Shown piece after piece: positions 19,617-53,937 of a stretch of 64,000 bases of DNA. Each line of letters opens with the position of its first letter. Position 1 is the stretch's first letter. A model generated the notes under the pieces. The model was not told the origin of the DNA and ran no database searches. It worked only from the letters and a program-made list of their open reading frames with translations. The stretch comes from Eubacteriales bacterium (GTDB lineage Bacteria > Bacillota > Clostridia > Lachnospirales > Lachnospiraceae), in contig JAUNSC010000014.1 in NCBI GenBank assembly GCA_030539395.1, forward strand, positions 16,721-80,720. Reading direction: 5' to 3'. The position numbers were made by a program, and so were the translations under genes.

Positions 19617-19737
19617 TTGAAAAACAGGAACAGATATGCTATACTGCTTATATCAGTATCAGTAATTGCTTTCGAGCGATTAGAGTTTTTCCGGTTACAC
19701 AGTGTCTGAGAGTATATACTTTCAGGCACTTTTTTTG
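19617..19737 (+). ncRNA. Leader cassette copy A: promoter, ~80-nt RNA, intrinsic terminator
   Basis: TTGAAA (19617-19622), 17-bp spacer, TATACT (19640-19645), conserved start region CTTATATCAGTATCAG, then stem AGTGTCTGA (19701-19709) with TCAGGCACT (19722-19730) and seven T. Copies B (40037) and C (53815) share spacing, start region and the AGTGTC...GGCACTTTTTTTGTTT terminator. It could be a small RNA or an attenuator for the methylase/ligA operon. Confidence 0.65.
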
Positions 19738-19839
19738 TTTCTTCTGCTTCTTTTCCAAGAAGCACAGAATGGGGAGTCCGGAGGCATGAGCCCTCCGCCC
19801 ATCTGCTACAATTTCATATCAGGCCCTCGGGCAATAAAG

Positions 19840-19876
19840 GCACTCAGAGAATTTCGGTTCTTTGGGTGCTTTTTTT
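19840..19876 (+). terminator. Second terminator in the leader of the methylase/ligA operon
   Basis: A 12-bp stem (19840-19851 with 19858-19869, two wobble pairs) with loop TTTCGG is followed by seven T. It comes before the first gene of the operon, so read-through or antitermination would be needed from promoter A. Confidence 0.75.
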
Positions 19877-19885
19877 ATATAGATC

Positions 19886-19925
19886 GGAGCTTTTGCGGCT
19901 CCCCCAATCTTTGTTCCGGGGAGCC
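19886..19925 (+). promoter_or_regulatory. Mutually exclusive hairpins before the first gene of the operon
   Basis: GGAGC (19886-19890) can pair with GCTCC (19898-19902). Alternatively GGCTCCCC (19897-19904) can pair with GGGGAGCC (19918-19925) ahead of TTTC. The two share bases, an attenuator-like arrangement. Confidence 0.45.
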
Positions 19926-19983
19926 TTTCGGCATACCCGTGTATATAGATAAAACCACGCAGGAATGCAGAAAGGAAATGCCT

Positions 19984-20355
19984 ATGATTCTTTATTTGAG
20001 TGCCAGAACTACCGTCAAGGATCTGATGATTGACTATATTGAGGTGGAACTGGTAAACGGAGAAACCATATCCCTTAATTGGGATGAGAGTGATATTGGG
20101 CGTACTGGCGACGGTTTCAGCGCCCGGTACAAAGGGGTGTATTTTGGAGAGGTCTATGCCAATGGCAGACTGGAGCAGCTGCAGGATATGAAAATAACCG
20201 ATATCGGTTTGTATTCTGAAAGCGATACTCCTCTCAATATCTGTATCACTTTAATGGAGTTTGAAGACGATGGCAGACGACTGGCGTTTGAAACTCCAAA
20301 TTTACATGGAAACATTGTTTGTCAGAACGAAAGTGGTGAGGTGATCGCATGTTGA
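19984..20355 (+). CDS. Conserved-type hypothetical protein
   Basis: The 123-residue protein is not recognised. It is acidic and beta-rich (YIEVELVNGETISLNWDES ... GVYFGEVYANGRLEQL ... NICITLMEFEDDGRR). ATG 19984 is chosen because GAAAGG lies 7-8 bases upstream; the frame continues upstream through the leader and is not coding there. It is the first gene after the leader cassette and overlaps the next gene by 7 bases. Confidence 0.6.
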   Translation: MILYLSARTTVKDLMIDYIEVELVNGETISLNWDESDIGRTGDGFSARYKGVYFGEVYANGRLEQLQDMKITDIGLYSESDTPLNICITLMEFEDDGRRLAFETPNLHGNIVCQNESGEVIAC

Positions 20356-20669
20356 AAAGCGGAAACTATATCGCCGAACACGATAACGGAATATTTGACC
20401 AATACCGGATTGTTATGTCCGTAAAGGAAACGAAGAGGTCATATATTTTTGAATTGCTTGAGTATGTAAGCCGGTATAGTCCGGCACAGATGGACAGGCT
20501 GTTCGACAAAAGTAAGCGGGTCCTGATTTCAAAGTTCAAGTGCGGCCATGCAATGCACATATGGAGTGACCATGACTTTACACTTTATCCATATCAAGCC
20601 GGGATTCCGTTTCATTTTGAGCGGGTCAATGAAGGCGGCAGTGCGGAAGGAAGTGGCGTCTATGGGTAA
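20349..20669 (+). CDS. Hypothetical protein
   Basis: A 106-residue unrecognised protein with a basic middle (DRLFDKSKRVLISKFKCGH) and a Gly/Ser-rich end. It overlaps the previous gene by 7 bases and the methylase-like gene by 8, showing tight translational coupling in the operon. No domain is recognised. Confidence 0.55.
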   Translation: MLKSGNYIAEHDNGIFDQYRIVMSVKETKRSYIFELLEYVSRYSPAQMDRLFDKSKRVLISKFKCGHAMHIWSDHDFTLYPYQAGIPFHFERVNEGGSAEGSGVYG

Positions 20670-21372
20670 GAAAAAAACATACAGGGGCGAGTTGGTTGAT
20701 GAAATCAGAGGTCTGGGGCAGTCACAAGGGTTGAATCATGTCTTCACTACTTTTTTGGAGGTTGCAGCAACCTGTATCTCTGCAGAGATGGATCCGTCAA
20801 ACGCAGAAGAACGCGAGAAGCGGTATGAGGAAATGGCATCTGCTATGGATCCTAAAACCCTCAACTGCTATGCACATATGCTCGCTCTGCTTGCGCTTGC
20901 TATTCATGAGCATGAGGAGGATCCCTGCGACATTCTTGGCAGTATCTATCATGAGCTTCGCTTAAATAACGAGTGGAACGGACAGTATTTCACTCCCGAT
21001 AATATTTGCCGGATGATGGCACAGCTTGTGAACCCAGTGGATGAGCGTCCTGAAGCGGAAGATCCCATCATGATCAACGAGCCTACTTGCGGTTCGGGTA
21101 CGATGGTGATTGGTGCAGTATGGGCCATGAAGCAGAAAGATTTCGATTTTCGGCACAAGAGTTTTTTTGTTGCCCAGGATATTGACATCCGCTGTGTGTG
21201 GATGGCATATATCCAGCTCAGTCTGTATGGAATTCCGGCGGTGGTCATTCATGGCGACACCTTAGCAATGAAAGAATGGTCCCGGTGGTACACTCCGTTG
21301 GCGTCTGTTCCTTTCATAAAAAGAGAATGCACTCTCAATAGCACAGAGAAAGGGGCGGCGACAAGTGGATAA
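20662..21372 (+). CDS. Short N-6 adenine DNA methylase-like protein lacking the NPPY motif
   Basis: The 236-residue product has the HsdM-type N-terminal signature GQYFTPDNICRMM and the SAM-binding motif NEPTCGSGTMVIGA (normally DPACGSG), then FVAQDIDIRCVWMAYIQLSLYG. It stops soon after HGDTLAMKEW and has no NPPF/Y catalytic motif. Without it, base methylation is unlikely; it may bind SAM or DNA, or need a partner. ATG 20662 follows GGAAGG; the longer frame to 20548 overlaps the preceding gene. It lies two genes upstream of small proteins leading to ligA. Confidence 0.75.
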   Translation: MGKKKTYRGELVDEIRGLGQSQGLNHVFTTFLEVAATCISAEMDPSNAEEREKRYEEMASAMDPKTLNCYAHMLALLALAIHEHEEDPCDILGSIYHELRLNNEWNGQYFTPDNICRMMAQLVNPVDERPEAEDPIMINEPTCGSGTMVIGAVWAMKQKDFDFRHKSFFVAQDIDIRCVWMAYIQLSLYGIPAVVIHGDTLAMKEWSRWYTPLASVPFIKRECTLNSTEKGAATSG

Positions 21373-21835
21373 TACAGAAAAATCTTTGGACCATTTGACC
21401 TTTGCTGATCTGCGAGTCCATTACGGAACCGGACGTGCTTTTCTGATCAGACAGGAGTATAGAAGGAATGTTTACGGCTACCGAAAAGGCGTTAAGACAG
21501 ATCTGGGAGACCTGGAGGAAAAAGATTGGATACAGCTGGCCACGGGTTTGATTCAAAAAAGCGGAGAGCAACAGCTGCAGAAAAATCTGTTGGAATGGGA
21601 GCAGGAGCATAATTATTGCAATAGTTCCCCCAAAGAGATGGAGATGACTGCACTGGAACTTCACATGGCCAGAATTTTTGATGATCCGCTCTGGGTGGCC
21701 TATATCCCGTTCAACCGCAAGTATCGGCCGGAGGTTCTGGAGTCTGCCAGACTGGTATGGGTTCAAACAGAATGCTGCGGGATACCCGGCAAATTACACA
21801 GGAGCAGCTGGATCAGTCTGCCGGAAACGCTTTAG
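21365..21835 (+). CDS. Hypothetical protein
   Basis: A 156-residue unrecognised protein, GTG start, overlapping the methylase-like stop by 8 bases. It is charged and helical in the first half (LRVHYGTGRAFLIRQEYRRN ... DWIQLATGLIQKSGEQQ). Two cysteines near the end (TECCG) are the only notable residues. Confidence 0.5.
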   Translation: MDNTEKSLDHLTFADLRVHYGTGRAFLIRQEYRRNVYGYRKGVKTDLGDLEEKDWIQLATGLIQKSGEQQLQKNLLEWEQEHNYCNSSPKEMEMTALELHMARIFDDPLWVAYIPFNRKYRPEVLESARLVWVQTECCGIPGKLHRSSWISLPETL

Positions 21836-21912
21836 GGATTACATGCCCGATATGCGGCCGGTGTTCCCAGTTTCAGGTCTGCGCGCCCAAGGAGGTGAGC
21901 GGAAATGGATAA
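21772..21912 (+). CDS. Small 46-residue protein with a CPxCGxC motif
   Basis: An ATG-initiated frame overlaps the end of the previous gene in a different frame and ends at a stop overlapping the next ATG (ATGGATAA). It encodes MLRDTRQITQEQLDQSAG and then ITCPICGRCSQFQVCAPKE. The cysteine cluster looks like a partial zinc ribbon. No strong ribosome site is visible. It could also be the frame-shifted end of the 21365 gene. Confidence 0.4.
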   Translation: MLRDTRQITQEQLDQSAGNALGITCPICGRCSQFQVCAPKEVSGNG

Positions 21913-22087
21913 GCTGTTTATCATTGTAAAAGGCGGCAGGGTAGAAGAAATCTACAGCACAAAAACAGAAAATGAGCTGTATGCGGAAATTCTTGATTTT
22001 GACTCAATGGAACGGACGGAAGAGATGGAAAAAGATCTTCAGTTCCGGTATGAGGCGATTCGGGAATTGATGTACAGAATTGACTGA
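21905..22087 (+). CDS. Small acidic hypothetical protein
   Basis: A 60-residue protein (MDKLFIIVKGGRVEEIYSTK ... YEAIRELMYRID) with an AAGGAGGTGAG site just upstream. It is 13 bases before the LigA start. The pattern (a short strand, then helices) is often seen in small element proteins, but no family is recognised. Confidence 0.6.
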   Translation: MDKLFIIVKGGRVEEIYSTKTENELYAEILDFDSMERTEEMEKDLQFRYEAIRELMYRID

Positions 22088-22100
22088 AAGGAGAATGCAC

Positions 22101-24071
22101 ATGAGTGCGAAATATAAAACAAACCATGAGCGTATGCTTGAGCTGATCGAGCAGCTCACAAAGGCAGATATTGCCTATTATCGGGATGATAATCCCATTA
22201 TGACAGACCGGGATTACGATATCCTGATGGACGAATTGAAAGACATTGAGAGCCGAACCGGGTTGGTTCTTTCCGGTTCCCCGACCCAAAAGGTGTCTGG
22301 AGAAATATTGGAAAGCCTGGCCGAGGTACGCCACAGCAAACCTATGCTTTCAGCGGATAAAACAAAATCTGTTGAGGATCTGGTGAAGTTTGCTGCCAAA
22401 CAGCCGGTGCTGATAAGCTGGAAAATGGACGGTCTGACACTGGTACTTCGTTATGAACACGGAGAACTGGTTCAGGCGATCACCCGCGGGCGTGAAGGGA
22501 TCATTGGTGAGGATGTAACACATACGGTGCGCACGTTTCTCAATGTGCCTCTGACCATACCCACCAAAGATTCGTTTGAGGTCCGGGGTGAGGGCGTCAT
22601 CTCATGGGCAAACTTTGAGAAAATCAATTCCGGTCTGGAGGAGCCCTATACTCACCCGAGAAATCTCGCATCCGGCAGCACGCGTAAGCTCGACGCCGGC
22701 GAAGCTAAAAAGCGATTGCTTGAGTTTTGGGCATTTGAGCTTGTGAGCGATTATCTGGAGCCGGAGAGTAAGCTTGCTCAGCAGCAGTTTTTGGTACATA
22801 ACGGTTTTTCTGTTGTGCCCTATATCTATCTGGATGCGATTCACGATGAAACAATGGTGCGTGATGCAATTTCTGCTATGGATCCGAAGAAGTTCCCTTA
22901 CCCGGTAGACGGAATTATCATGGAATATGATGATGTTGCCTACGGAAAAGGTCTGGGAGCCACAGGGCATCATGAAAACCGTTTGATTGCATTGAAGTGG
23001 GAAGATGAACTGTATGAAACCACATTCATTGGTCTGGATGTGGCAGTCACTCGCACTGGGATGGTCAGTCTGACAGGCATCTTTGAGCCGGTGTCTATTG
23101 ACGGCACTCAAGTCAGCCGGGCGTATCTGCATAACTACGAGAATTATCTGGACCTTGCATTAGGGCGTGGTGATAAGATCCGCGTGTATAAGGCGAACAT
23201 GATCATTCCGCAGATTGCAGAGAACCTTAATAAGACCGGAACCTGCTGTGTTCCGCTCAATTGTCCCTGCTGTGGCAAGATGCTGAGTTTCCGGAAAAGC
23301 AGCGGCGGTATTCGCCAGCTGTTCTGTGAAAATCCGCATTGTTCTGCCAAACTGGTGCGAAAATTTGTCCACTTTTGTGAGAAAACGAGGATGAATATCG
23401 AGGGCCTGTCGGAAAAAACTCTGGAGCAGTTTGTAAGTCATGGCTGGATTCGGACGTTTGCAGATCTTTATGCGCTGGATCAACACCGTGATGAGATTAT
23501 CCAGACGGAAGGCTTTGGGGAGAAATCCTTTGAGCGTCTGCAGGCATCCATTGAGAAAAGCCGCCATTGCACGTTGGCAAAATTTATTGCAGGCTTGGGT
23601 ATTCCCATGGTGGGAAGACATGCCGGGCGTGATTTGGACAGCTATTTCCATGGATCGTGGGAAGCGTTTGAACAGGCGATTCAGGATGGCTTCGACTTCA
23701 CACAGCTTCCTGATTTCGGCGGGACGATGCACAACAACATTTATACATGGTATGCGGATACAGAGGAAGAAAAACTCTGGCGCCCGCTGCTTGAAAAAAT
23801 TGAATTTGAAAAGGAGAATTTTGATATGAATACAAATACAGCGAATCCCTTCTACGGCAAGACCGTAGTGGCAACCGGCAAACTGGAGAATTACACCCGT
23901 GACGGCATCCAGATGAAGCTGATGCAGCTGGGGGCAAAACCGGCAAGCTCGGTGACGAAAAAGACCGATTATCTGATTGTTGGTGAAAAGGCCGGCAGTA
24001 AGCTTACGAAAGCGCAGCAGCTCGGTATCAAGACGCTGACAGAGGAAGAATTTGAGGCAATGCTGGCGTAA
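22101..24071 (+). CDS. ligA: NAD-dependent DNA ligase
   Basis: The 656-residue enzyme has the full LigA layout: N-terminal Ia domain, adenylation domain with the active-site Lys108 in KMDG, GEDVTHTVRTF, and HPRNLASGSTRKLD. An OB fold, a four-cysteine zinc finger (CPCC and ENPHC) and helix-hairpin-helix repeats (LIAGLGIPMVGRHAG) follow. A C-terminal BRCT domain runs from about 585 (FYGKTVVATGKLENYTRDG). It seals nicks in an NAD-dependent way. ATG 22101 is chosen for AAAGGAG 7 bases upstream. A ligase in such an element must be additional to the chromosomal one. Confidence 0.95.
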   Translation: MSAKYKTNHERMLELIEQLTKADIAYYRDDNPIMTDRDYDILMDELKDIESRTGLVLSGSPTQKVSGEILESLAEVRHSKPMLSADKTKSVEDLVKFAAKQPVLISWKMDGLTLVLRYEHGELVQAITRGREGIIGEDVTHTVRTFLNVPLTIPTKDSFEVRGEGVISWANFEKINSGLEEPYTHPRNLASGSTRKLDAGEAKKRLLEFWAFELVSDYLEPESKLAQQQFLVHNGFSVVPYIYLDAIHDETMVRDAISAMDPKKFPYPVDGIIMEYDDVAYGKGLGATGHHENRLIALKWEDELYETTFIGLDVAVTRTGMVSLTGIFEPVSIDGTQVSRAYLHNYENYLDLALGRGDKIRVYKANMIIPQIAENLNKTGTCCVPLNCPCCGKMLSFRKSSGGIRQLFCENPHCSAKLVRKFVHFCEKTRMNIEGLSEKTLEQFVSHGWIRTFADLYALDQHRDEIIQTEGFGEKSFERLQASIEKSRHCTLAKFIAGLGIPMVGRHAGRDLDSYFHGSWEAFEQAIQDGFDFTQLPDFGGTMHNNIYTWYADTEEEKLWRPLLEKIEFEKENFDMNTNTANPFYGKTVVATGKLENYTRDGIQMKLMQLGAKPASSVTKKTDYLIVGEKAGSKLTKAQQLGIKTLTEEEFEAMLA

Positions 24072-24090
24072 ATTCGCCGGAATAACAGTG

Positions 24091-24117
24091 GCGGGGCAGA
24101 TTTTCTGCTCCGCTTTT
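24091..24117 (+). terminator. Terminator after ligA
   Basis: GCGGGGCAGA (24091-24100) pairs with TCTGCTCCGC (24104-24113, one G-T) followed by TTTT. The next gene starts at 24143 with no visible promoter between, so it is an intra-operon terminator. Confidence 0.7.
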
Positions 24118-24142: not shown

Positions 24143-24382
24143 ATGAATCCAAAATATCGCTGTCCTGCTTGCGGAGCAGAAAGCTTTGAGGTGACAGCTC
24201 ATGTCACGCAGGACTGGAAGATCGACTGTAACGGAACCTTTCTGGAATCTCTAAATGAGTGCGTGGAGGTTACGCATTATCCTGATGAGAATGACATCTG
24301 GGATTGTGCCAATTGTGGCTTCAGCGTAGCGGGATGTGAGTTCCGAAATCAGTCTGAAAGACAGAAAGGGGCGACAACATGA
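24143..24382 (+). CDS. Small zinc-ribbon protein
   Basis: A 79-residue protein with two CxxC knuckles, CPAC near the N-terminus (YRCPACGAES) and CANC later (DIWDCANCGFSV). The spacing suits one zinc. Between them are acidic residues. It overlaps the next gene by four bases (ATGA). The role is unknown; such ribbons in phage and element operons often bind nucleic acid or protein. Confidence 0.7.
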   Translation: MNPKYRCPACGAESFEVTAHVTQDWKIDCNGTFLESLNECVEVTHYPDENDIWDCANCGFSVAGCEFRNQSERQKGATT

Positions 24383-38017: not shown

Positions 38018-38274
38018 TCATAAATCTCCATTTTCTCTGTCTTATTTAGATATTTTTTATCGCGTCTATTGATTTTATACTGAAACAAGATATAATGTTG
38101 GATAGAGTAGATATTTATTATCTTGTTTAGATAGAAGCATGCTTTTTTGATGATTGTCCGAGACCAATGCGGTTTATGCTTTGATAATGGCCATATAGTG
38201 AGATTGCGTAGTGAAGAACTTCTTTGGCGTGGTATGGCAGATAAAATGGCACAAAAGTGGCATAGGAAATGCCG
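38018..38274. other. Intergenic region between the XRE gene and leader cassette D
   Basis: An A/T-rich stretch. TATATTATTGATTT-like pieces around 38060-38130 could hold the leftward XRE promoter, but no clear -35/-10 pair is convincing. A frame from 38211 runs into the zinc-ribbon gene and is not taken as coding. Confidence 0.35.
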
Positions 38275-38347
38275 ATGACATGGAAAAGAAAATCTGTTAT
38301 ACTTATATCGTCTACAAGTGGGTTCTCAGGAATCTGCTTGTTTTTTT
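38275..38347 (+). ncRNA. Leader cassette copy D (short, diverged)
   Basis: ATGACA (38275-38280), 17-bp spacer, TATACT (38298-38303), then TTATATC as in the other copies. A 7-bp stem (CAAGTGG, 38315-38321, with CTGCTTG, 38334-38340; two wobble pairs) with a T-run follows. It lies just before the AGGAAAGGAG site of the zinc-ribbon gene, the layout of a transcription attenuator. Confidence 0.5.
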
Positions 38348-40036: not shown

Positions 40037-40161
40037 TTGACTATTGAAGCTGCATATGCTATAATACTTATATCAGTTTCAAGATTTCCAAAGAGAAATC
40101 ACGAGTTTCAGAGTTTTCAAAGTGTCAATTAGCACAATTGTGTTGGTTGGCACTTTTTTTG
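40037..40161 (+). ncRNA. Leader cassette copy B upstream of ssb
   Basis: TTGACT (40037-40042), 17-bp spacer, TATAAT (40060-40065), start region CTTATATCAGTTTCAAG. The terminator stem is AGTGTCAA (40121-40128) with TTGGCACT (40147-40154), then seven T. It contains a 10-bp palindrome CACAATTGTG in the loop. Confidence 0.7.
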
Positions 40162-40235
40162 TTTCTTTTGGTTTCTGCCTGCAAAGCAGGTTTGAAATAA
40201 ATATTTTTTATAGCAGGTAGCCCCTGCGAGAAAGG
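40162..40235 (+). promoter_or_regulatory. Further hairpins between cassette B and ssb
   Basis: CCTGCAAAGCAGG near 40177-40190, and GCAGG ... CCTGC near 40213-40228 close to the ribosome site AAAGGAG. The repeated CCTGC/GCAGG sequences can pair in alternative ways, as in the leader of cassette A. Confidence 0.4.
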
Positions 40236-40243: not shown

Positions 40244-40741
40244 ATGTTAAAAGTTTTTGCAACACAAGTCGTCGTATCCAAGGGTTATGACAATGCGCCA
40301 GCTCTTCGCTTTTCTGAGAATGGTGATTCTGTGAGGTTCCGTATCGGCAAGAAGGTCTATGATCCTCATGCTGAAAACGACAGCCGCTGGATCAACCTTC
40401 CGGTCAAAGCGTTTAACGGCGTATGCGAACGCATCAAGAAGATGCAGCTGAAAGAGGGTTCCTTTGTGAATCTGATTGGCAGGCTGGACGAAGATTCCTG
40501 GGAAGATAAGGATACCAAAGAAACCAGAAAAATGATGGTTATTATTCTGGATGACATTGAGTATGCTTCCGGTGGAGGTAAGTCCAAGGAAAACCAGGCA
40601 ACTGCAGGACAGCAGAATGCGGCTCCCCAGAATACTGCTCCGCAAAATGCTGCTTCAACTCCTGCGACAGGCGCTGAAGCATCCGGAAATTTTACCGGGT
40701 ATGAGGCATTTGGCGGCGGATCATTCTTTGATGAGAATTGA
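40244..40741 (+). CDS. ssb: Single-stranded DNA-binding protein
   Basis: The 165-residue protein has an OB-fold N-terminal half (FATQVVVSKGYDNAPALRFSEN ..., VRFRIGKKVYDP, WINLPVKAFNG, FVNLIGRLDEDSW) and a Gln/Ala/Pro-rich linker with a short acidic end (FFDEN). It would coat ssDNA in replication or transfer. It follows cassette B, behind GAAAGGAG, and a strong terminator follows it. Confidence 0.85.
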   Translation: MLKVFATQVVVSKGYDNAPALRFSENGDSVRFRIGKKVYDPHAENDSRWINLPVKAFNGVCERIKKMQLKEGSFVNLIGRLDEDSWEDKDTKETRKMMVIILDDIEYASGGGKSKENQATAGQQNAAPQNTAPQNAASTPATGAEASGNFTGYEAFGGGSFFDEN

Positions 40742-40772
40742 TTGGAGCAACAATTGAATCGGGCGTATTAAG

Positions 40773-40816
40773 GCGCACATGAGTTACAGACACTGTATGC
40801 TCATGTGCGCTTTTTT
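40773..40816 (+). terminator. Strong terminator after ssb
   Basis: GCGCACATGAG (40773-40783) pairs perfectly with CTCATGTGCGC (40800-40810), then six T. The next gene starts at 40838 with no visible promoter, so some read-through or antitermination is needed. Confidence 0.85.
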
Positions 40817-41976: not shown

Positions 41977-43851
41977 ATGAGTGCATACATGAACAACATC
42001 TTTAATTATAGCCGTCCCTTACCGGAACCGTTTGACACACTGACGAACAAAAAGGTGTCAGTATCATCGAAATATGGAGATGGGACAAATGCAACTTTGT
42101 GTTCAACAGTCATAAAAGCGGTACATGCAGTTTGCCGCTGCATGGATGGCAGCGCCGAAGGAGCTGTCGGGGTCATCGACCACAGGACGGTTGCTGAATA
42201 CAAATCGTCCATGGGGCCTGATGAGTATCATCTGGTAGTATATGACAGCAACTCCGGTTCGTTAATGGCAAGCGTGTATGACAAGAACACGGAAACTTTT
42301 GAAAACTATGTGCTGAACGCATCAGGGCGTGACGGAGCTGCCGTTATGATGGCACTGTTTCCGGTGCTTATGAATGACGAGGAATTCAATGATAATTTTG
42401 AATTGTACCGCGATCAGTTCAGTCATGGATTTTCGGATTTACGCTCGGCTACGGAGTACATGGCAATGCTATGTGACAACGCCTACAGGCGCATCAAAGA
42501 TACCTCTTGCTCAGCAGCCGTCAAGGTGAGTGTGGACAAGGCCGGAAATCTGATGCGTGTATCTCAGGTGCAGCTGGATTCCGGCGCTTTTGAGCCTACC
42601 CATGTGATTGCGGGGGAATTTACGATTTTTGCAAAAACAGCGAGGGTTATTGTGAAGAGCGCAGACGCCATTGTGGAACACACGGATTTTGTCGGCAAGT
42701 ACGAACTGCATCCAAGGACTATGAGCAGTCAGGAAAAACAGCTGATACCGGTGCTTCCGGAATGGTACATCATTCCACAGGAGGTCGTTGATATCTGTAA
42801 ACATGCTCAGGCCACTACCGGGAAACCGACACAGATGAGGAATTTCCTCCTCCGTGGACCAGCGGGAACCGGAAAGACCATGAGCGCAAAGGCGATTGCC
42901 GCAGGGCTGGGGCTTCCGTATATGGCATACACCTGCTCGGCAGGCACAGAGATATTTGACTTCATCGGTCAGATATTTCCGGACTCGGATTCGTGTTCTA
43001 CCGGAGATGCCCAGCTGGATCACGAAAAAGCAATTTTGACGAGTATGGGCGGCATCAATTATGCCAATGTGTCCAAGATGATGAACCTTCCCGATTTGGA
43101 TGATATGGACTACGATCCGGCGGGGGTATATCAGGCACTGACGGGTATAGAGAATGCGGCTGCCACATCTCAGGATTGCATGAGCATTGTGCTGGATCGT
43201 GTAACAGAGAAAGTACGTGCTCTGTCCAGACGGGATGAAAATTCCAAGAGCAGCGGTCAGACCTATACCTACACGGAAACTGATTTTATCAAGGCTCTGA
43301 AGAATGGGTATGTCATTGAGATCCAGGAACCTTCCACAATTGTTCAGCCAGGCGTTCTGGTAGGACTGAATTCCCTGTTGGAGCAGACCGGGACAATCAC
43401 CCTTCCCACAGGAGAGGTGATAAAGCGTCATCCGGATGCAGTCGTAGTAGTAACAACCAACATCGAATACGAAGGGTGCCGAGGCATGAACCAGTCCGTT
43501 ATCGACAGAATGAGTCTGGTGCGGGACGTGGAGCTGCCGACGCCTGAAGTGATGGTGCATCGTGCCATGTCAGTTACAGGTGCAACAGATGAGTACCAGA
43601 TTTCCCAGATGGTGCAGGTGGTCAATGATCTGTCGGAGTATTGCCGAAAAAACAGTATTACAGACGGTTCGTATGGTATGCGCAGTCTGATCGACTGGAT
43701 CGTAAGCAGCGAGATTACCGGCGATGTATATGAGTCGGCACTATATACGATCATCAGCAAGGCGACAACGGATGAAGTAGACCGTGAGGCGCTGGTCAGT
43801 GCAGTTCTGGAACCGATTTTCACAAAGAAGCGAAAGAAAGCAACTGCATAA
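41977..43851 (+). CDS. MoxR-type AAA+ ATPase
   Basis: The 624-residue protein has Walker A GPAGTGKT (294-301), pore-loop-like YTCSAGTEIFDFIGQ, a long insert with two helical blocks, and sensor residues in VVVVTTNIEYEGCRGMN. A C-terminal helical lid (YGMRSLIDWIVSSE) follows. The first 280 residues form an unassigned N-terminal domain. MoxR-family ATPases act with VWA-domain partners; such a partner is encoded 28 bases downstream. They act as a chaperone or remodelling machine in known families. Confidence 0.85.
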   Translation: MSAYMNNIFNYSRPLPEPFDTLTNKKVSVSSKYGDGTNATLCSTVIKAVHAVCRCMDGSAEGAVGVIDHRTVAEYKSSMGPDEYHLVVYDSNSGSLMASVYDKNTETFENYVLNASGRDGAAVMMALFPVLMNDEEFNDNFELYRDQFSHGFSDLRSATEYMAMLCDNAYRRIKDTSCSAAVKVSVDKAGNLMRVSQVQLDSGAFEPTHVIAGEFTIFAKTARVIVKSADAIVEHTDFVGKYELHPRTMSSQEKQLIPVLPEWYIIPQEVVDICKHAQATTGKPTQMRNFLLRGPAGTGKTMSAKAIAAGLGLPYMAYTCSAGTEIFDFIGQIFPDSDSCSTGDAQLDHEKAILTSMGGINYANVSKMMNLPDLDDMDYDPAGVYQALTGIENAAATSQDCMSIVLDRVTEKVRALSRRDENSKSSGQTYTYTETDFIKALKNGYVIEIQEPSTIVQPGVLVGLNSLLEQTGTITLPTGEVIKRHPDAVVVVTTNIEYEGCRGMNQSVIDRMSLVRDVELPTPEVMVHRAMSVTGATDEYQISQMVQVVNDLSEYCRKNSITDGSYGMRSLIDWIVSSEITGDVYESALYTIISKATTDEVDREALVSAVLEPIFTKKRKKATA

Positions 43852-43879: not shown

Positions 43880-46150
43880 ATGGCGAGGGTGAATCACAAG
43901 TTAGTAAAACAGCGGCTCAATGAGCAGCGCAGTAAAATTTCAGACCGACAATTCTTCTCGTCCCGTCTTTTGGCGGGACATTTTGAAGATCTGGCGGCGG
44001 CACAGACAAGGCGGTATCGCTATAACCGCCGGGTCCGCGTCAATCTGTACTGGAAACCGAGAGAAAAGCATGTGGCGTCAACGGACAATATGTTTGTGCG
44101 TATCAATACCGGTAATTCCCTGGTTACAAAGGTAAAAGGGCGGGAAAACCGTTACCAGATTGTGTGCGGTTTGTTTGCACACGAACTGGGACATGTCCTT
44201 TATACGGACTTTCTGGCAGCACAGACACATACCAACTATTTAGGAAGCGGTCGCTGGTATCCCTATCCGCCAGACCTGAAGACAACGGCGGATGCGCGGA
44301 ACGAGAAAGCATTCTGGAATTATGTGAAAACTGATCCGAAAAATCTGGAGATGGTGCAGATGATTGCCCATCATATCTCCAATGTAATTGAGGATGGGTA
44401 TATTGAAAACAGGATGCTGAACAATTTTCCAGGTACTTTGGGGTACGGTCTTGAAAAGCTGCGGGAGCAGCATTTTGAGCATATTGAAACGGTGACGCAG
44501 ATGATTGAGAGTGAGGATGAAGGAAAGCATATTTTTGAAAGCATTCTTCAGATCATGCTCTCTTATGCTAAGTTTGGTGAAATCAAATACGGGGACGAAC
44601 CGCTCAGTGATGAAAGAATTCAGGCGGTGTTTGGTTTGATTACCGATATTGACAGCGCTTTACTGAGCAGGTCCGGAAAAGACCGGTTGAATGTTGTCAA
44701 CATGGTACTGGTAAGGTGCTGGGACTATATCGAATCTTTTTGTGAAGAATGCAAAAAGCGTCAGGAAGAGGCAGTAGCCTCCGGCGGTTCCACCAGCCTT
44801 GCAGAAACCTTGTCGGAAGTGTTGGGTGCAATTGCCGGTGGTTCCGAAATGGGTGAAGGAAGTAGTACACCGGTGCCGGAAGCCTCCGGCGGGTCAGAAG
44901 AATCTGCGACGGCCGGCAAACGGGCACAGACCCATGCAGATGCCGACAGTGAGGATGACGCTGAGGAAACAGACAGCTCCCAGACTGACTCTGAAACGGA
45001 AGAAAATCCATCTGGGTCTGGGGGAAGCGATAATTCTTCAGACGAAGATGCCGCCCCGATAGATGGTGGCAGTTCCGGTTCAGGGAAACAGGAAACTTCG
45101 GATACTGAGCAGGGGCGTATTCCTTATCACCAGTCAGAATCACTTTCCGAACCTGTTGGCGGTTCCGTGGAAAAAAACGAAGATTATGAGCGGGAGCATT
45201 ACGACAGTGCGGCTGCCGATATTGAACGTCTTCTGGATAAGATGGCAGAAAAGGCGGCCTGTGAGCAACTGGAGAATGAAAGGATTCAGGAGCTTAACGA
45301 TGTCGCTCAGAACATTTCCTATGGGAATATCCATGAAGGAGTACCTATCCGAATCAACCGGATTGCCTCTGTGGATGAGGAACTTATGGAACAGTACGAT
45401 GCTATTTCAGGACCTTTGCTGAATATTTCCCGCCAGCTGCAGAAGAGTTTGCTCAAGCAGCTCAAGGAAAACCGGAGAGGCGGTAAACAGACAGGGCTTA
45501 TCATGGGCCGCCGTCTGGATGCGCACGCACTGTGCAGGAATGACGGCAAGGTGTTTTATAAGAACAACCTGCCCAATGAGATCCCGGAGCTGGCAGTCGG
45601 TCTGCTTCTGGATGAGTCAGGGTCTATGTGTTCCTGTGACCGCTGTACTTATGCCAGAGCTTCGGCCATCATTCTGTATGATTTCTGCCAGAGTTTGGAC
45701 ATTCCGGTAATGGTCTATGGTCATTCCACCGATTATACCGATGTCGGAAATACGGTGGCATTGTATTCCTATGCGGAATTTGATGGTTTTGACCATGATG
45801 ATAAATACCGCATGATGGATATTGCGGCCAGAGGCAGTAACCGTGACGGGGCGGCACTTCGTTTTGTTGCGGAGCAGCTGTCTAAGCGGCCGGAAGCAGT
45901 AAAAATCCTCATACTGGTTTCTGACGGACAGCCTGCTGACAGTGGGTATGGAGGTTCCGCAGCTGAGGAGGACCTTCGCGGCATCAAGCAGGAGTATCAA
46001 CGTAAAGGTATTTTGTTTGTCGCTGCGGCAATCGGAGATGACAAGCAGAACATTGAGAGAATCTACGGAGACTCATTCCTGGATATCTCGGATTTAAACC
46101 AACTGCCCACAAAACTGACCGCTGTTGTGAAGCGGCATGTGAGGGTATAA
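43880..46150 (+). CDS. VWA domain protein with HELGH motif, partner of the MoxR-like ATPase
   Basis: The 756-residue protein has a metallopeptidase-like HELGH (101-105) in LFAHELGHVLYTD, followed by NVIEDGYIENRM (ED at 171-172), then an acidic, Ser/Glu-rich low-complexity region (about 330-450), and a C-terminal VWA domain with MIDAS DESGSM at about 577-582 and LVSDGQPADSG. Similar HExxH-plus-VWA proteins pair with MoxR ATPases (NorQ/NorD, CobS/CobT-like). It may be a substrate or adaptor of the ATPase. A role on this element is not known. Confidence 0.82.
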   Translation: MARVNHKLVKQRLNEQRSKISDRQFFSSRLLAGHFEDLAAAQTRRYRYNRRVRVNLYWKPREKHVASTDNMFVRINTGNSLVTKVKGRENRYQIVCGLFAHELGHVLYTDFLAAQTHTNYLGSGRWYPYPPDLKTTADARNEKAFWNYVKTDPKNLEMVQMIAHHISNVIEDGYIENRMLNNFPGTLGYGLEKLREQHFEHIETVTQMIESEDEGKHIFESILQIMLSYAKFGEIKYGDEPLSDERIQAVFGLITDIDSALLSRSGKDRLNVVNMVLVRCWDYIESFCEECKKRQEEAVASGGSTSLAETLSEVLGAIAGGSEMGEGSSTPVPEASGGSEESATAGKRAQTHADADSEDDAEETDSSQTDSETEENPSGSGGSDNSSDEDAAPIDGGSSGSGKQETSDTEQGRIPYHQSESLSEPVGGSVEKNEDYEREHYDSAAADIERLLDKMAEKAACEQLENERIQELNDVAQNISYGNIHEGVPIRINRIASVDEELMEQYDAISGPLLNISRQLQKSLLKQLKENRRGGKQTGLIMGRRLDAHALCRNDGKVFYKNNLPNEIPELAVGLLLDESGSMCSCDRCTYARASAIILYDFCQSLDIPVMVYGHSTDYTDVGNTVALYSYAEFDGFDHDDKYRMMDIAARGSNRDGAALRFVAEQLSKRPEAVKILILVSDGQPADSGYGGSAAEEDLRGIKQEYQRKGILFVAAAIGDDKQNIERIYGDSFLDISDLNQLPTKLTAVVKRHVRV

Positions 46151-49394: not shown

Positions 49395-49400
49395 GAGGCG

Positions 49401-49787
49401 ATGAAAGTGTTGCATAACCAAACAAATGCGAAAGCAGGGCAAATGAGTATTGTCCTGGAAAATCTCAGTATCACGAAAGATAAAATATCTGCAGTTCTAA
49501 AGAGGAGATGGCTGGCTTGTTATATGCTCTATGACTGGAATTACCGTCATGCAGAGCATACGTTTGCCGCAAATGAAATGGAGCGATTCCAAAAGGCTAT
49601 TGAGACCCTTAACAGACATCCATGTGCTGCTTCTGAACTGGATCAAAAGCTGACCAAAGCCTACAACAGAGTCTTGATGGAAGATGTAGAATCTTTTATC
49701 AGACAGCACATGAAAGTCTGGTCTGCGGATCGTACTGTGGTAGAGTTAGAACTTGCACGAGCGGAAGCAGAAATGCTTCAGTGTTAG
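49401..49787 (+). CDS. Helical hypothetical protein
   Basis: A 128-residue helical protein (NLSITKDKISAVLKRRWLA ... NEMERFQKAIETLNRHPC). An AGGAGG site precedes ATG 49401. It lies 15 bases before the methyltransferase-like gene. Confidence 0.5.
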   Translation: MKVLHNQTNAKAGQMSIVLENLSITKDKISAVLKRRWLACYMLYDWNYRHAEHTFAANEMERFQKAIETLNRHPCAASELDQKLTKAYNRVLMEDVESFIRQHMKVWSADRTVVELELARAEAEMLQC

Positions 49788-49802
49788 AGAGGAGGTGGCA
49801 TT

Positions 49803-50735
49803 ATGCCTTATAAAAGCGAATCAAGGCCGTTGACCAGCATTGTTTCCTATCCGGAACGTGGCGAAGGCGGCAATAACCGTTATCGGGGGAACTGTTCTCC
49901 CAGACTGATTGAGGATCTTTTAGGGTTCTTTCGCCCGGGAGAAATCTGTGACTACATGTGCGGCGGCGGGACGACTAAAGCAGCGGCGGACAAATTGGGC
50001 ATTGGCAGTCATCTGTATGACCTGCACAGCGGATTTGATATCATGAACTGCGAAATCCCGGAGCGTCCGGAGTTCATCTTCTGGCATCCTCCATATTGGG
50101 ATATCGTGACCTATTCGGATGTCATGTATAAAGCCTCTGATGTCCAAAAAAAATACGGCTATGACCCGAGACAGTATGATCTGTCGCGCATACCGGACTG
50201 GGAAAGCTTTGTTGATAAAATGAACTATGCCATGATGAAGCAGTTTTCTGCCCTTGAAAAAGGTGGCAGGATGGCGGTTTTAATGGGAGACATTAAGAAA
50301 AGAGGCGTGCTTTACAGTATGCTTTCTGAAATCGTCAAGCCGGGCTCCTTGGAAAACATCATCATCAAGGCTCAACATAACTGCTTTTCAGACAAGATCC
50401 AGTATAGCGGAAAATTCATCCCGATTCTGCATGAATATGTGATGATTGTCCGAAAGGATTCACCGCTTCTGGTTCCGATTATCATGGCAAAGAAAGCGGA
50501 GGTCGATATCCGGGATATGCCGGGAGCGACATGGCGTGATGTAGTTGCTGCCGTTTTGGAACAGTGCAGCGAGCCGGTGACGCTCACGTTTCTCTATGAG
50601 AAAATAGAGCCGCATAAAAAAGCACAGGCAAATAAATGGTGGAAAGAAAAAATCCGCCAAACGCTTCAGATCAATCCTACATACTTCTTACATGATGGCA
50701 GGGGAATGTGGTCTTTGAACAGAAGCGCAGCATAG
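49803..50735 (+). CDS. DNA methyltransferase-like protein with altered catalytic motif
   Basis: The 310-residue protein has YMCGGGTTKAAADKLG at the SAM-binding position (compare GSGTT) and FWHPPYWDIVTYSD at the catalytic position, where the usual first residue of (D/N/S)PPY is His. A wHTH-like C-terminal part (VVAAVLEQCSEPVTLTFLYE) follows. This is a family of phage and element N4/N6-type methyltransferases; activity with HPPY is uncertain. Start after GGAGGTGG. Confidence 0.7.
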   Translation: MPYKSESRPLTSIVSYPERGEGGNNRYRGNCSPRLIEDLLGFFRPGEICDYMCGGGTTKAAADKLGIGSHLYDLHSGFDIMNCEIPERPEFIFWHPPYWDIVTYSDVMYKASDVQKKYGYDPRQYDLSRIPDWESFVDKMNYAMMKQFSALEKGGRMAVLMGDIKKRGVLYSMLSEIVKPGSLENIIIKAQHNCFSDKIQYSGKFIPILHEYVMIVRKDSPLLVPIIMAKKAEVDIRDMPGATWRDVVAAVLEQCSEPVTLTFLYEKIEPHKKAQANKWWKEKIRQTLQINPTYFLHDGRGMWSLNRSAA

Positions 50736-50744
50736 TATCTGCGT

Positions 50745-50785
50745 CTGGGGGATGTCTTTTGTAGGCATCCCTCAGTTGCTTTAAC
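50745..50785 (+). terminator. Terminator after the methyltransferase-like gene
   Basis: CTGGGGGATG (50745-50754) pairs with CATCCCTCAG (50766-50775) with one G-T, followed by TTGCTTT. It closes the ssb-to-methyltransferase operon. Confidence 0.65.
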
Positions 50786-50850
50786 TAGATGTAGAAGAAG
50801 GATGACTTTTTTGCTATAATACAAATATATTTATGGATAGGAGGAGAAAT

Positions 50851-51177
50851 ATGTCTGCTTATTATAATCCGGAAACGTACAGAAAAATTATCAGAAATGG
50901 TGAAGAATGTTGGGTATATGATTGGGGCAAAAATGCTGATATAAATTCGTTCAATTATATGCTGGATCGCTGGGAGGGCACCCAGCAACAATTTTTTATC
51001 AATGGTGAGACTAAGCAATATTTTCTTATTAATAAACAAGAGCGTACTGTCATGGAAATATTAAATCCAGAAGTAATAAGGTTCCTGTATGAGCATCTTT
51101 ATATGGCTGAAATTAACGAAACCTTTATTGAACTGTTTACCTCAATCGGTAGGTTTAAGACAGTGAAGTACGAGTAG
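50851..51177 (+). CDS. Hypothetical protein
   Basis: A 108-residue protein (MSAYYNPETYRKIIRNGEE ... FLYEHLYMAEINETFIELF). Start after AGGAGGAG. It has its own promoter: TATAAT near 50815 with a weak -35. A UUCG-loop terminator follows at 51196. It is unrecognised. Confidence 0.55.
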   Translation: MSAYYNPETYRKIIRNGEECWVYDWGKNADINSFNYMLDRWEGTQQQFFINGETKQYFLINKQERTVMEILNPEVIRFLYEHLYMAEINETFIELFTSIGRFKTVKYE

Positions 51178-51195
51178 GTTCTGATTTTTTCTTGA

Positions 51196-51223
51196 GGATG
51201 TCGCTTCGGCGGCATCCCTTTTT
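51196..51223 (+). terminator. UUCG tetraloop terminator
   Basis: GGATGTCGC (51196-51204) pairs with GCGGCATCC (51209-51217; one G-U) around a TTCG loop, then CTTTTTG. A compact stable terminator. Confidence 0.85.
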
Positions 51224-51268
51224 GCATAATTGTTTTCAATTTGGACATACTAATCTCCGAGAGTTCTA

Positions 51269-51315
51269 TTTACATTCACACTTCAATAGTGTATAATGTG
51301 GAGTACGAATGTAAA
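51269..51315 (+). promoter_or_regulatory. Promoter and inverted-repeat operator of the AbiE pair
   Basis: TTTACA (51269-51274), 17-bp spacer, TATAAT (51292-51297). It is bracketed by TTTACATTC (51269-51277) and GAATGTAAA (51307-51315), perfect 9-bp arms. AbiEi antitoxins repress their own promoter through inverted repeats, so this fits known autoregulation. Confidence 0.75.
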
Positions 51316-51935
51316 TGGAGCCAAGGAGGTGCATTGATACGGACACGATTTGGACTAAAATTCAAACAATTGCAGAAAAAAGCAATGGGTTTGTTAAGAC
51401 TTCTGATATTGAGGCGGCTGGAATCAGCAGACCGATGTTGAAAAAGTATGTTGATATGGGAAAATTAGATCCGGTGCGAAAAGGGTTATATATTTTGACC
51501 GATGAATTTACTGACGAGTTTGCGCTTCTCCAGGCACAAAGTGCAAAGATAATATATTCATATGGCACCGCACTGTTCTTTTGGGGGATGTCGGACAGGG
51601 CGCCGAACATCTTGGATATAACGCTGCCTCGTGGAACGAACATCAGCAGGTTAAGGCGTGATAATCCGAATTTGCGTTGTCATTATGTGCAGACGGAAGT
51701 TTACGATCTTGGAATAACAGAAACAAAATCCCCTCAAGGCGGGATGGTAAAGCTGTATGACAGGGAGCGCTGTATTTGTGATGTGATCCGGGATAAGGAT
51801 CAAATTGAGTTGCAGCTATTTACGCAGGCAATTAAGGACTATTTTAAGACAAATCCAAATAATCGAAAATTGCTGAAATATGGCAAGATATTTGGAATTG
51901 AAGATAAGATAAGAACATATATGGAGGTTTTATAA
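51315..51935 (+). CDS. AbiEi-type antitoxin/regulator (type IV toxin-antitoxin)
   Basis: The 206-residue protein has an N-terminal winged helix (NGFVKTSDIEAAGISRPMLK, then YVDMGKLDPVRKGLYIL) and the AbiEi_2-like middle (FALLQAQSAKIIYSYGTALF). It pairs with the AbiEii toxin that overlaps its stop by one base. The ATG at 51315 is inside the operator and lacks a ribosome site; AAGGAGGTG at 51323-51331 stands before an in-frame ATT at 51333, a likely AUU start. AbiEi represses the operon and is expected to antagonise the toxin. Confidence 0.88.
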   Translation: MEPRRCIDTDTIWTKIQTIAEKSNGFVKTSDIEAAGISRPMLKKYVDMGKLDPVRKGLYILTDEFTDEFALLQAQSAKIIYSYGTALFFWGMSDRAPNILDITLPRGTNISRLRRDNPNLRCHYVQTEVYDLGITETKSPQGGMVKLYDRERCICDVIRDKDQIELQLFTQAIKDYFKTNPNNRKLLKYGKIFGIEDKIRTYMEVL

Positions 51936-52774
51936 TGAAGACACCGGAACAACTAAAAGGAGCCATTCGCAGCATGGCAGCGAAGAAAAATCTTCGTGCA
52001 CAGGAAGTGCTGCAGATGTTTTTATTTGAAAGAATCATTGATCGTTTGGCAGCCTCATCCTTTCGGGACAATTTTATTTTGAAGGGCGGTCTGCTGATTT
52101 CATCCATGATAGGAATCAGTGAACGAACTACAATGGATATGGACACAACGGTGCGTGGTATTCAAATGGAAGAGGACGAGATTGTTTCTGTAGTCAAAGA
52201 GATTATCGCAATGGATGTGGGAGACGGGATTTCTTTTGAATTTCAGAAAATTGAACCGATCCGCGAGGATGATGCGTACAATAATTTCCGGGTTCATCTG
52301 CGTGCAAAATACGGGAAGATTGACAGTCCAATGAAGATAGACATTACTACCGGAGATATTATTACGCCTGCAGCCATTCGATATGATTTCCCGTTTGTGT
52401 TTGAGGAGAAAACGGTTCCGGTCATGGCATATACGCTTGAGACAGTACTTGCGGAAAAATATGAAACGATTATCCGCAGAAACATTGGAACTACAAGAGC
52501 AAGGGATTATTATGATTTACATACTCTTTACCGCAGCCGTAAAGATGTGGTTCAGATGGATGTTCTGAGGGCAGCAGTTATTCATACTGCGGAAAAAAGA
52601 GATTCGGTTGATGATATCAGGGACTGGAGAGATATTCTGAAGGATATCCGTGAAGAGCCGCAGTTATATCTTCTGTGGGATAACTATGCTGCGGACAACA
52701 AATACATTGGAGATTTGAAATTCAATGAAGTTCTTGATGCGGTGGACGAAATTGCAAAGATTCTTGATTTGTGA
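51935..52774 (+). CDS. AbiEii-type nucleotidyltransferase toxin
   Basis: The 279-residue protein has ILKGGLLISSMIGISERTT, then MDMDTTV (metal-binding Asp-x-Asp) and IDITTGD, PVMAYTLETVLAEKYETII and RARDYYDL. These are the four AbiEii nucleotidyltransferase motifs. Known members act on tRNA 3' ends or bind GTP and cause growth arrest, blocking phage. The ATG overlaps the AbiEi stop by one base and follows GGAGG. Confidence 0.9.
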   Translation: MKTPEQLKGAIRSMAAKKNLRAQEVLQMFLFERIIDRLAASSFRDNFILKGGLLISSMIGISERTTMDMDTTVRGIQMEEDEIVSVVKEIIAMDVGDGISFEFQKIEPIREDDAYNNFRVHLRAKYGKIDSPMKIDITTGDIITPAAIRYDFPFVFEEKTVPVMAYTLETVLAEKYETIIRRNIGTTRARDYYDLHTLYRSRKDVVQMDVLRAAVIHTAEKRDSVDDIRDWRDILKDIREEPQLYLLWDNYAADNKYIGDLKFNEVLDAVDEIAKILDL

Positions 52775-52845
52775 TATTGAGTAAGAAATGAATAAATTTT
52801 GAAAAAGGATACTCATAATAGAAATCGGGATTTGAAAAGGAGATC

Positions 52846-53550
52846 ATGCGCATGGAGAAATATTTGCAAGAAACAAAAATGCTTGATTTTTCCAACAACG
52901 ACATTCAACAGTTGATTGCTGATAAAGGTTGGATTTTGCAAACGGACTTTGAGAAAATCAAAAGTATTTATGAATATGTTCGAGACAAGATTAAATTTGG
53001 CTATAATATAGACGATAGCATACCTGCGTCAAGGGTGCTTTCAGACGGCTATGGACAGTGCAACACAAAAGGAACGCTGTTTATGGCGCTGTTGAGAGCT
53101 GTTCATATACCTTGCCGCGTACATGGCTTTACAATAGATAAAAAATTACAAAAGGGAGCTATGACGGGTATTGTTTATAAGTTTTCCCCCAATAATGTAT
53201 TCCATAGTTGGGTCGAAGTGTATTTAGACGGTGTCTGGTATGAGCTTGAAGCATTTATACTCGATAAGGAGTATCTGCATAAGCTGCAAACAGCAAATTT
53301 AGATTGTGAAGGTGCATTTTGCGGATATGGTGTCGCTGTAAAAGATTTTAAGCATCCGATTATAGACTTTAATAGGAATAATACATATATCCAAAGCGAA
53401 GGTATTAACCAGGATTTTGGAATATATGACTCACCTGATGAATTGTTGCAAGAACACCAGCAAGAGATGTCAATCATAAAGGCATTTGCATATAGAAACC
53501 TTGGACGGCACTTGATGAATAGGAATGTAAGAAAAATCAGAAATATGTAG
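52846..53550 (+). CDS. Transglutaminase-like cysteine protease superfamily protein
   Basis: The 234-residue protein has the transglutaminase-core pattern: Cys in GYGQCNTKGTLFMALLRA, His in FHSWVEVYLDG and an Asp/Glu in WYELEAFILD. YEYVRDKIKFGYN fits the start of the core. The role may be protein cross-linking or cleavage. ATG 52846 or 52852 both follow AAGGAG. It is separated from the AbiE pair by ~70 bases and may be another cargo gene. Confidence 0.8.
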   Translation: MRMEKYLQETKMLDFSNNDIQQLIADKGWILQTDFEKIKSIYEYVRDKIKFGYNIDDSIPASRVLSDGYGQCNTKGTLFMALLRAVHIPCRVHGFTIDKKLQKGAMTGIVYKFSPNNVFHSWVEVYLDGVWYELEAFILDKEYLHKLQTANLDCEGAFCGYGVAVKDFKHPIIDFNRNNTYIQSEGINQDFGIYDSPDELLQEHQQEMSIIKAFAYRNLGRHLMNRNVRKIRNM

Positions 53551-53610
53551 TAAAGCAAATTCTGATTTATCAAATCATAAAGTTTTGAAACAAAAAGAAT
53601 ATTGTAACCC

Positions 53611-53641
53611 AGAGATGTTGATTATAAGCATCTCTTTTTTA
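53611..53641 (+). terminator. Terminator after the transglutaminase-like gene
   Basis: AGAGATG (53611-53617) pairs with CATCTCT (53629-53635), then a T6 run. Confidence 0.75.
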
Positions 53642-53664
53642 TATCACAAAGGAGGTAACACAGT

Positions 53665-53778
53665 ATGGGATGGTTGATAGGTATCCTTAGTTTTATTGGC
53701 GGCAGCATGTTTGGAGTTGTCTTTATGTGTATGTTTCAGATTAACCGAACTTACAGAAATAAGTGCTCGGAGGAATAA
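53665..53778 (+). CDS. DUF3789-like small membrane protein
   Basis: A 37-residue protein (MGWLIGILSFIGGSMFGVVF, then CMFQINRTYRNKCSEE) with one membrane helix and a short basic tail, behind AAAGGAGG. DUF3789 proteins have this size and shape and are found on Clostridial and enterococcal mobile elements. It precedes leader cassette C. Confidence 0.7.
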   Translation: MGWLIGILSFIGGSMFGVVFMCMFQINRTYRNKCSEE

Positions 53779-53814
53779 ACATTTGCGGTAAGAAGGCTCT
53801 TTTCTCCTGGTGGA

Positions 53815-53937
53815 TTGACTATTGCAAACAAATCTGTTATAATATTTACATCAGTATCAAGTTTGGCTACGGCTAAACACAGTTTAACAGAGTTTATCAA
53901 AGTGTCATTTGCAATTTTGCAGATGGCACTTTTTTTG
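53815..53937 (+). ncRNA. Leader cassette copy C upstream of the nuclease operon
   Basis: TTGACT (53815-53820), 17-bp spacer, TATAAT (53838-53843), start region TTTACATCAGTATCAAG. The terminator stem is AGTGTCAT (53901-53908) with ATGGCACT (53923-53930), then seven T and GTTT. It is closest to copy B. Confidence 0.7.

Follow-up and report, generated by a model that had tools for sequence, protein, structure and literature searches.

In a 64,000-nucleotide stretch of contig JAUNSC010000014.1 from a Lachnospiraceae bacterium (hereafter, the window), several operons of one element begin with what looks like the same promoter, leader and terminator, which raises the question of what an RNA of this layout does ahead of genes for replication and recombination. 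The initial annotation of this DNA had listed four such units and offered two explanations: attenuators under a common trans-factor, or a family of related small RNAs. We find that three of the units, here called cassettes A, B and C, represent an apparently undescribed RNA family whose mode of action is most likely that of known antitermination leaders, and whose unusual features are the several copies per element and the conserved terminator within the unit. Labels beginning with G and L denote the genomes and loci compared.

Leader anatomy and covariation

In A, B and C, an extended -10 promoter is followed by a leader of 95–99 nt that consists of a conserved start region (TATATCAGTWTCA in A and B, TACATCAGTATCA in C), a first hairpin (HP1), a conserved linker and a terminator, T1, which has an AGUGUC/GGCACU stem base, U7 and GUUU (Table 1). 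The boxes, the 17-bp spacer, the start, the AGTGTC...GGCACT stem, T7 and GTTT that had been claimed for these sites are therefore all present. While the stem itself stood, the gap of about 80 bases placed before it did not: the stem starts about 55 bases past the -10 box (in A, 84 from the start of the -35 box), and what had been drawn as a single stem is actually two conserved hairpins, HP1 and T1. Folded against dinucleotide shuffles, leaders A, B and C gave z-scores of -3.6, -4.3 and -6.7. The exact T1 pattern occurs three times in the host genome, each time inside this element (reversed-genome control: 0). We saw no leader-peptide feature, as no ATG (the only start codon considered, by eye) precedes the T1 3' arm in any of the three leaders.

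Building a covariance model from the copies and searching with it, a step already suggested in the initial annotation, yielded a covariance-supported RNA family that extends across the class. Two such models were used, R1, made from eight leader sequences with the promoters excluded, and R2; the E-values of both are rough. The final alignment holds 37 copies, 36 of them distinct and about 20 effective at 80% identity. Standard pairs fill 95.1% of its cells, as against 36–45% for slid structures, and 17 of the 21 pairs changed on both sides, values that 0 of 500 shuffles reached; being fitted to the model, this alignment leans towards the structure, but both helices had already emerged from the first MAFFT alignment, of the eight sequences, in which 12 of 21 predicted pairs were compensatory. 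The covariation noted at the outset for B and C was thus real as to the pairing and understated in scope, as it spans both helices family-wide.

Outside the helices, conservation is found in the start (AGTWTCA), in the linker (roughly CAnAG-TT-nTCnGAGTT-nCA) and in the tail (T7-G-TTT). The outer pairs of T1 hardly vary, apart from compensatory changes (U-A to C-G in four) among distant copies, and the U-G wobble at its base is retained in 35 of the 36 distinct copies. A sigma-70-like promoter, absent from both models, lies just upstream of all 37 copies at no fewer than 9 of 12 matches when spacers of 16–18 bp are allowed, a score that 1.4% of 3,205 positions reach in a random control; the spacer is 17 bp in 35 copies, and TGn is likewise present in 35. 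Eleven of the 37 copies were outside the R2 training set. The covariation and the promoter statistics together led us to reject both chance and a similarity of promoters only; with two covarying helices, the family does not reduce to its promoter boxes.

Two further pairings were considered. A covariation scan for alternative helices returned, beyond the two helices, T1-internal shifts as its top pairs, all others scoring at most 0.42 (scores without a significance test), and nothing prominent by covariation was found for an alternative antiterminator helix, including one formed by the 5' AGUWUC, which is similar to the 5' arm of T1. A pairing of linker and U-tract, seen in the folds of B and C, is unsupported because several copies have A for the tail G without any change of the linker C (by eye).

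The fourth site, D, had been called a shorter copy of the same unit. It shares the layout and a few letters with A, B and C and has neither HP1 nor linker; we rejected it as a family member because neither covariance model picks it up, with E allowed up to 10 for R1 and up to 1 for R2. D is kept at its own place ahead of the zinc-ribbon gene in 17 of the 19 other loci compared (exceptions L044 and L055). Upstream of its promoter (38226–38280), repeated TGGCA and GGCAT...ATGCC motifs look operator-like and, by eye, are partly retained in relatives. Cassette B was not found in L050, where an apparent deletion joining D to ssb puts ssb (8342–8640) behind promoter-terminator D; for this reason, D may replace B there.

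Distribution, linked genes and apparent relatives

Among 299 genomes of the same family, a search with the T1 pattern matched seven: cassettes of the A, B or C kind are present in the genome itself, G104, G136, G163 and G262, and G028, G035 and one extra G104 site have only the T1 variant of the deeper relatives described below. R1 matched five of 392 genomes of the order, our own included; two of its matches (L032, L033) lie behind coding sequence and by eye are without start region or linker, and were treated as chance terminators and excluded from the alignment. The CobS-like protein of the B operon led to 18 public-genome loci, whose titles include Blautia, Schaedlerella and Lachnospiraceae and, for one metagenome-assembled genome, Bacteroidales. 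R1 found the cassette in 16 of these, the exceptions being L050 and L048, a 5.4-kb contig that begins within CobS. Carriers include Blautia parvula NBRC 113351 and Schaedlerella arabinosiphila. In another family, R2 matched three of 38 genomes, of which two had already appeared in the R1 search of the order; in the class, which the named relatives identify as Clostridia, it matched four of 341, our own included, the three new ones carrying 3, 4 and 2 copies. Copies were also present on two IMG/VR contigs (the total for that database) and on the faecal 'phage' scaffold MT837680. No match was obtained in a plasmid DNA search with cassette B, nor with R2 at E up to 10 in pMG2200 or a Subdoligranulum plasmid stretch.

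At gathering score, Rfam 15 had 0 matches in the window and in L005, L006, L007, L030 and L031, and the cassette B region alone reached a best sub-threshold E of 0.22. A description of such a leader family was not found in the open-access literature searched. Within these two sources, the initial statement that no family of this layout had been described holds.

Orthologous genes follow the cassette within 2.5 kb in 31 of the 37 copies: ssb in 14, a 54044-type gene in nine and an A-type gene in eight (methylase five, ligA two, first gene one). The operons concerned serve replication or recombination in the element. The six copies left without ortholog assignment, two of which had little sequence, were grouped by leader resemblance as C-like (L039) or A-like (L021, L044, L069, L070, L075). 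The genes behind the cassette in L044 are one that by eye is of metal-chelating type, followed by CobS; a cassette can thus pass from one operon to another.

The proposal of element-coded small RNAs, in which T1 would be the true 3' end, action would be in trans and the operons would depend on rare read-through, found no positive support and strikes us as improbable. The units are compact, with their own promoter and terminator, and the T1 base and U tail are strongly conserved, which would suit such RNAs; however, the hairpin loops vary (by eye), the linkage to orthologous genes is as just given, and T2 and later terminators are conserved past the supposed 3' end. The sole target search, for the 10-mer ATCAGTWTCA in the window, found one further exact site, on the other strand.

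Four loci are proposed as deeper relatives, a homology that rests on position and T1 letters. L007, L011 and L022 have a promoter, a leader of about 130 nt, the family T1 base and tail, and a second terminator, and may form a second leader class; in L011, where these parts lie at 1347–1740, the leader folds as a multibranched domain and the downstream gene encodes a 33%-identical homologue of the 54044 protein. L077 has a GTGTCA...TGGCAC T7 ATTT terminator and another multibranched domain ahead of an SSB-like gene (SSB by eye). All four were excluded from the alignment because R2 scores them near chance. If they are relatives, T1 would be the most conserved part of the unit and the upstream domain replaceable.

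Predicted serial terminators and proposed processive antitermination

The terminators discussed here are all predictions. Between 19.5 and 64 kb of the window, 12 terminators at -16 kcal/mol or stronger are predicted on the + strand (T1s included) and one on the other. Behind T1, a second terminator, T2, was found in all 10 C-like copies and in 12 of the 13 A-like ones, where it ranges from -11.0 to -24.5 kcal/mol; the script took a false open reading frame in the thirteenth, L044, and a hairpin and T-run are visible there by eye. A terminator of -18 to -31 kcal/mol stands behind ssb in all 12 B operons examined (of 14), and the next ribosome-binding site lies within about 25 bp of its T-run (distances by eye). 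The interval from T1 to the first open reading frame holds no promoter-like site at 9/12 in 35 of the 37 copies, the remaining two scoring 9/12, and behind the window's terminators at 24090, 40770 and 56789 there is none at 8/12 or above. As 35 of 37 copies lack such a site ahead of the first gene, polymerase seems able to arrive at most of these genes only through read-through of serial terminators.

With moderate confidence, we read the cassette RNA, from comparison of sequences, as the leader of a processive antitermination system that works like put, EAR, canT or conAn. Each cassette would start an operon that is stopped by default: RNA polymerase would initiate at the near-consensus sigma-70 promoter and make a leader of about 95 nt, and unmodified polymerase would halt at T1 or the next terminator. 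The nascent leader (5' AUCAGUWUCA, HP1, the CAGAGUU linker and probably the T1 base) would act in cis as a loading site and, by itself or together with a factor from host or element, turn the polymerase into a terminator-resistant form able to pass T1, T2 and the intergenic terminators; replication and recombination operons would thereby be co-expressed and spurious transcription filtered out. We infer termination in vivo at T1, T2 and the internal hairpins, read-through caused by the leader, its processivity, and any signal or factor involved.

Two features typical of antitermination RNAs are observed: a structured RNA at the transcript start (two covarying hairpins directly behind the promoter), and several predicted terminators in the operon with no promoter-like site behind them, the exception being that at 61856. 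We favour processive antitermination because most genes behind terminators appear to be expressed only by terminator-ignoring polymerases, and because the leader, with its conserved single-stranded motifs, is the sequence common to the operons and stands where such a signal should be.

The series of terminators also argues for this reading over a single attenuator. The attenuator part of the first explanation in the initial annotation was upheld and sharpened into terminators in series; its common trans-factor may exist, and none was identified. In a conventional attenuator regulon, an element protein, RNA or ligand would bind the leader and prevent T1 only, later leaky terminators setting gene ratios. 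Every copy has one T1, the conserved single-stranded motifs resemble binding sites, three operons with the same leader fit one common factor, and T1 alone precedes ssb in B-type leaders; moreover, T1 persists where another, multibranched domain seems to have taken the upstream position (L011 and L077), as in an aptamer joined to an expression platform. However, T2, found in 22 of 23 A- and C-like leaders, and the post-ssb terminator would cut expression again, and no alternative antiterminator pairing is prominent by covariation. We consider such a regulon unlikely.

Insulation only, in which constitutive promoters and leaky terminators would protect the host against transcription coming into the element and there would be no read-through device, is very unlikely in our judgement: Tn916 T1 is described as such an insulator (PMC11658703) and the promoters are near consensus, but it is these promoters, which belong to the element itself, that the terminators follow, and it would go unexplained why HP1, linker and 5' motif are conserved. 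A device of the LoaP/RfaH type, in which a NusG paralogue recognises a leader hairpin, would suit a small hairpin upstream of long operons and is largely refuted. The draft genomes G000, G104, G163 and G136 each have one NusG-domain match, which lies on a different contig or, in G104, about 200 kb away from the cassettes; the draft genome G262 has nine, of which two share a contig with the cassettes, at a distance of 35 kb from cassette C.

Several observations weigh against processive antitermination. No antitermination factor was identified for the cassettes, and the leader is without detected homology to any proven antiterminator. T1, T2 and the internal terminators are predictions. A strong T2 precedes ssb in 0 of 14 B-type leaders (one has a weak hairpin), so a T1 attenuator would suffice for ssb alone, and L050, without cassette B, still keeps ssb. 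The ParM-like gene may not need read-through, because a promoter-like site of 9/12 stands behind the 61856 terminator. Conservation of the T1 base would not be needed if T1 were a stop signal only.

The comparative count of terminators has to be weighed with these points. Strong terminators followed immediately by a ribosome-binding site and open reading frame number 18 in 166.4 kb of element DNA (0.108 per kb; seven loci, related to one another, two of them adjacent stretches of one contig, the count including cassette D and C-type T2s) and four in 128.7 kb of control DNA (0.031 per kb; seven stretches, few as controls, some of which may sit in other mobile elements). In pLS20, which has antitermination, there are four in 45 kb (0.089 per kb), and in pMG2200 there are 0 in 49 kb. 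The excess is limited to strong terminators with a gene at once behind: the total density of strong terminators, 0.30–0.67 per kb in elements and 0.20–0.45 in controls, is not clearly higher.

A more specific proposal, to which we give limited credence, is that T1 is itself part of the signal, a promoter-proximal terminator that modifies the polymerase it would otherwise stop, within a new leader-RNA family placed on several element operons. It is put forward because the U-G wobble is almost invariant and because the T1 base and the U7-(G/A)-UUU tail persist in the apparent deeper relatives.

Comparison with known antiterminators

In phage lambda, nut is a common device on more than one operon and qut brings a default stop close to the promoter; both rely on protein factors, N and Q, whereas no such factor was recognised for the cassettes. 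The put RNAs of phage HK022 are two-hairpin RNAs close behind a promoter, with two sites per phage, downstream terminators and no known terminator inside the unit. Compared by description only, the cassettes share the two hairpins close behind the promoter but contain T1. The put RNA is named in PMC11658703 and PMC8955417, and EAR, of Bacillus exopolysaccharide operons, is given as an antitermination leader RNA in PMC11658703; in contrast to EAR, the window and five relatives match no Rfam family.

In what PMC11658703 and PMC8955417 describe of canT and conAn, genes behind terminators are expressed by terminator-ignoring polymerases. canT of Tn916 is reported as a cis RNA that carries RNA polymerase past several intrinsic terminators, with activity shown for 341- and 452-nt regions at one site and acting after excision (PMC11658703). 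The likeness lies in the Gram-positive integrative element, and in G104 a tyrosine integrase with a Tn916-type DNA-binding domain adjoins the cassette region; by description, not sequence, the cassettes differ in being about 95 nt long, present in three copies and placed directly behind their own promoters. conAn of pLS20, composed of the protein ConAn1 and the RNA conAn2 (PMC8955417), resembles them in having an RNA at the start of a long Gram-positive mobile-element operon with internal terminators. As described there, it differs in its single site per plasmid and its protein partner. For homology to conAn2, R2 at E up to 10 had no match in the first 34 kb of pLS20, within which the operon start presumably lies. 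The R2 matches in pLS20 are weak; the best (L076:34341-34442, E 0.013) has HP1 unpaired and is probably due to chance. It coincides with a strong terminator that precedes the ssb gene of pLS20 by about 400 bases.

The features of the window are listed in Table 1. The DUF3854 protein at 60792 we take to be primase-like. Between the 61856 terminator and the ParM-like gene lies the promoter-like site TTGTAA-17-TGTAAT (61919–61947), and expression of the partition genes may be independent of the C operon. The B operon carries cargo at 49803–53550, comprising an AbiEi/AbiEii type IV toxin-antitoxin pair, a transglutaminase-like protein and a promoter-like site at 51269; the terminators at 50745 and 51196 were left aside, since they border cargo that has a promoter of its own. 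Among the window proteins scanned with Pfam, which are part of the total, no relaxase or type IV secretion gene was recognised.

Table 1. Predicted features of the window, with positions counted from its first nucleotide
Feature	Position	Strand	Details
Cassette A promoter	19617..19645	+	TTGAAA-17-TATACT, TGC preceding -10
Cassette A leader RNA	19646..19740	+	TATATCAGTATCA start; HP1 19663-19682; linker; T1 19701-19730; T-run and GTTT; covariance-model E 3.2e-15
T2 of leader A	19837..19872	+	-19.8 kcal/mol predicted
First gene after cassette A	19984..20355	+	about 123 amino acids; no Pfam match
N6 methylase-like gene, A operon	20548-21372	+
ligA, A operon	22080-24071	+
Terminator directly after ligA	24090..24114	+	-18.4 kcal/mol; start codon of following gene at 24143; interval free of promoter-like sites
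Cassette D	38275..38341	+	promoter and immediate 12-bp terminator ahead of zinc-ribbon gene (38373); position conserved; outside RNA family
Cassette B promoter	40037..40065	+	TTGACT-17-TATAAT, TGC preceding -10
Cassette B leader RNA	40066..40164	+	HP1 40083-40100; T1 40119-40156; covariance-model E 5.6e-16
ssb, first gene after cassette B	40244..40741	+	PF00436, 2.1e-06
Terminator after ssb	40770..40813	+	-28 kcal/mol; T-run to next ribosome-binding site about 10 bp
CobS-like AAA ATPase, B operon	41977-43851	+
CobT-like VWA protein, B operon	43880-46150	+
Cassette C promoter	53815..53843	+	TTGACT-17-TATAAT, TGT preceding -10
Cassette C leader RNA	53844..53940	+	HP1 53861-53878; T1 53899-53932; covariance-model E 2.2e-16
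T2 of leader C	53963..53992	+	-20.0 kcal/mol predicted
First gene after cassette C	54044..55186	+	380 amino acids; no Pfam match
C operon onward		+	YqaJ nuclease 55186; DUF7768 56237; RecD2 56867; DUF3854 protein 60792; actin-like, ParM type 61984
Terminator directly before recD2, inside C operon	56789..56826	+	-19.7 kcal/mol; predicted on other strand too; no promoter-like site behind
Terminator after DUF3854 gene	61856..61881	+	-17.6 kcal/mol; promoter-like site (9/12) at 61919

Two observations concern other loci. In L042 (Schaedlerella arabinosiphila, NZ_RHJS01000002), the cassette B leader and ssb are separated by a group II intron (6578–8444), which carries a reverse-transcriptase-like open reading frame (by eye) and lies a few tens of bases past the T-run of B's T1; some group II introns target terminators. 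Left of the element region in G104 (G104:C1, ~3252700-3258400, minus strand), open reading frames by eye resemble a vanG-type glycopeptide-resistance set.

Known RNA antiterminators are few, those named in PMC11658703 and PMC8955417 being put, EAR, conAn2 and canT, and the two Gram-positive mobile-element antiterminators described there both act from one site, whereas the cassettes stand on three operons. If our reading is correct, an RNA of about 95 nt on three operons, with 36 distinct covarying variants, would provide a compact system for comparing variants and learning what in an RNA causes RNA polymerase to disregard terminators, and it would explain how replication and recombination genes are kept silent yet jointly inducible in such integrative elements.

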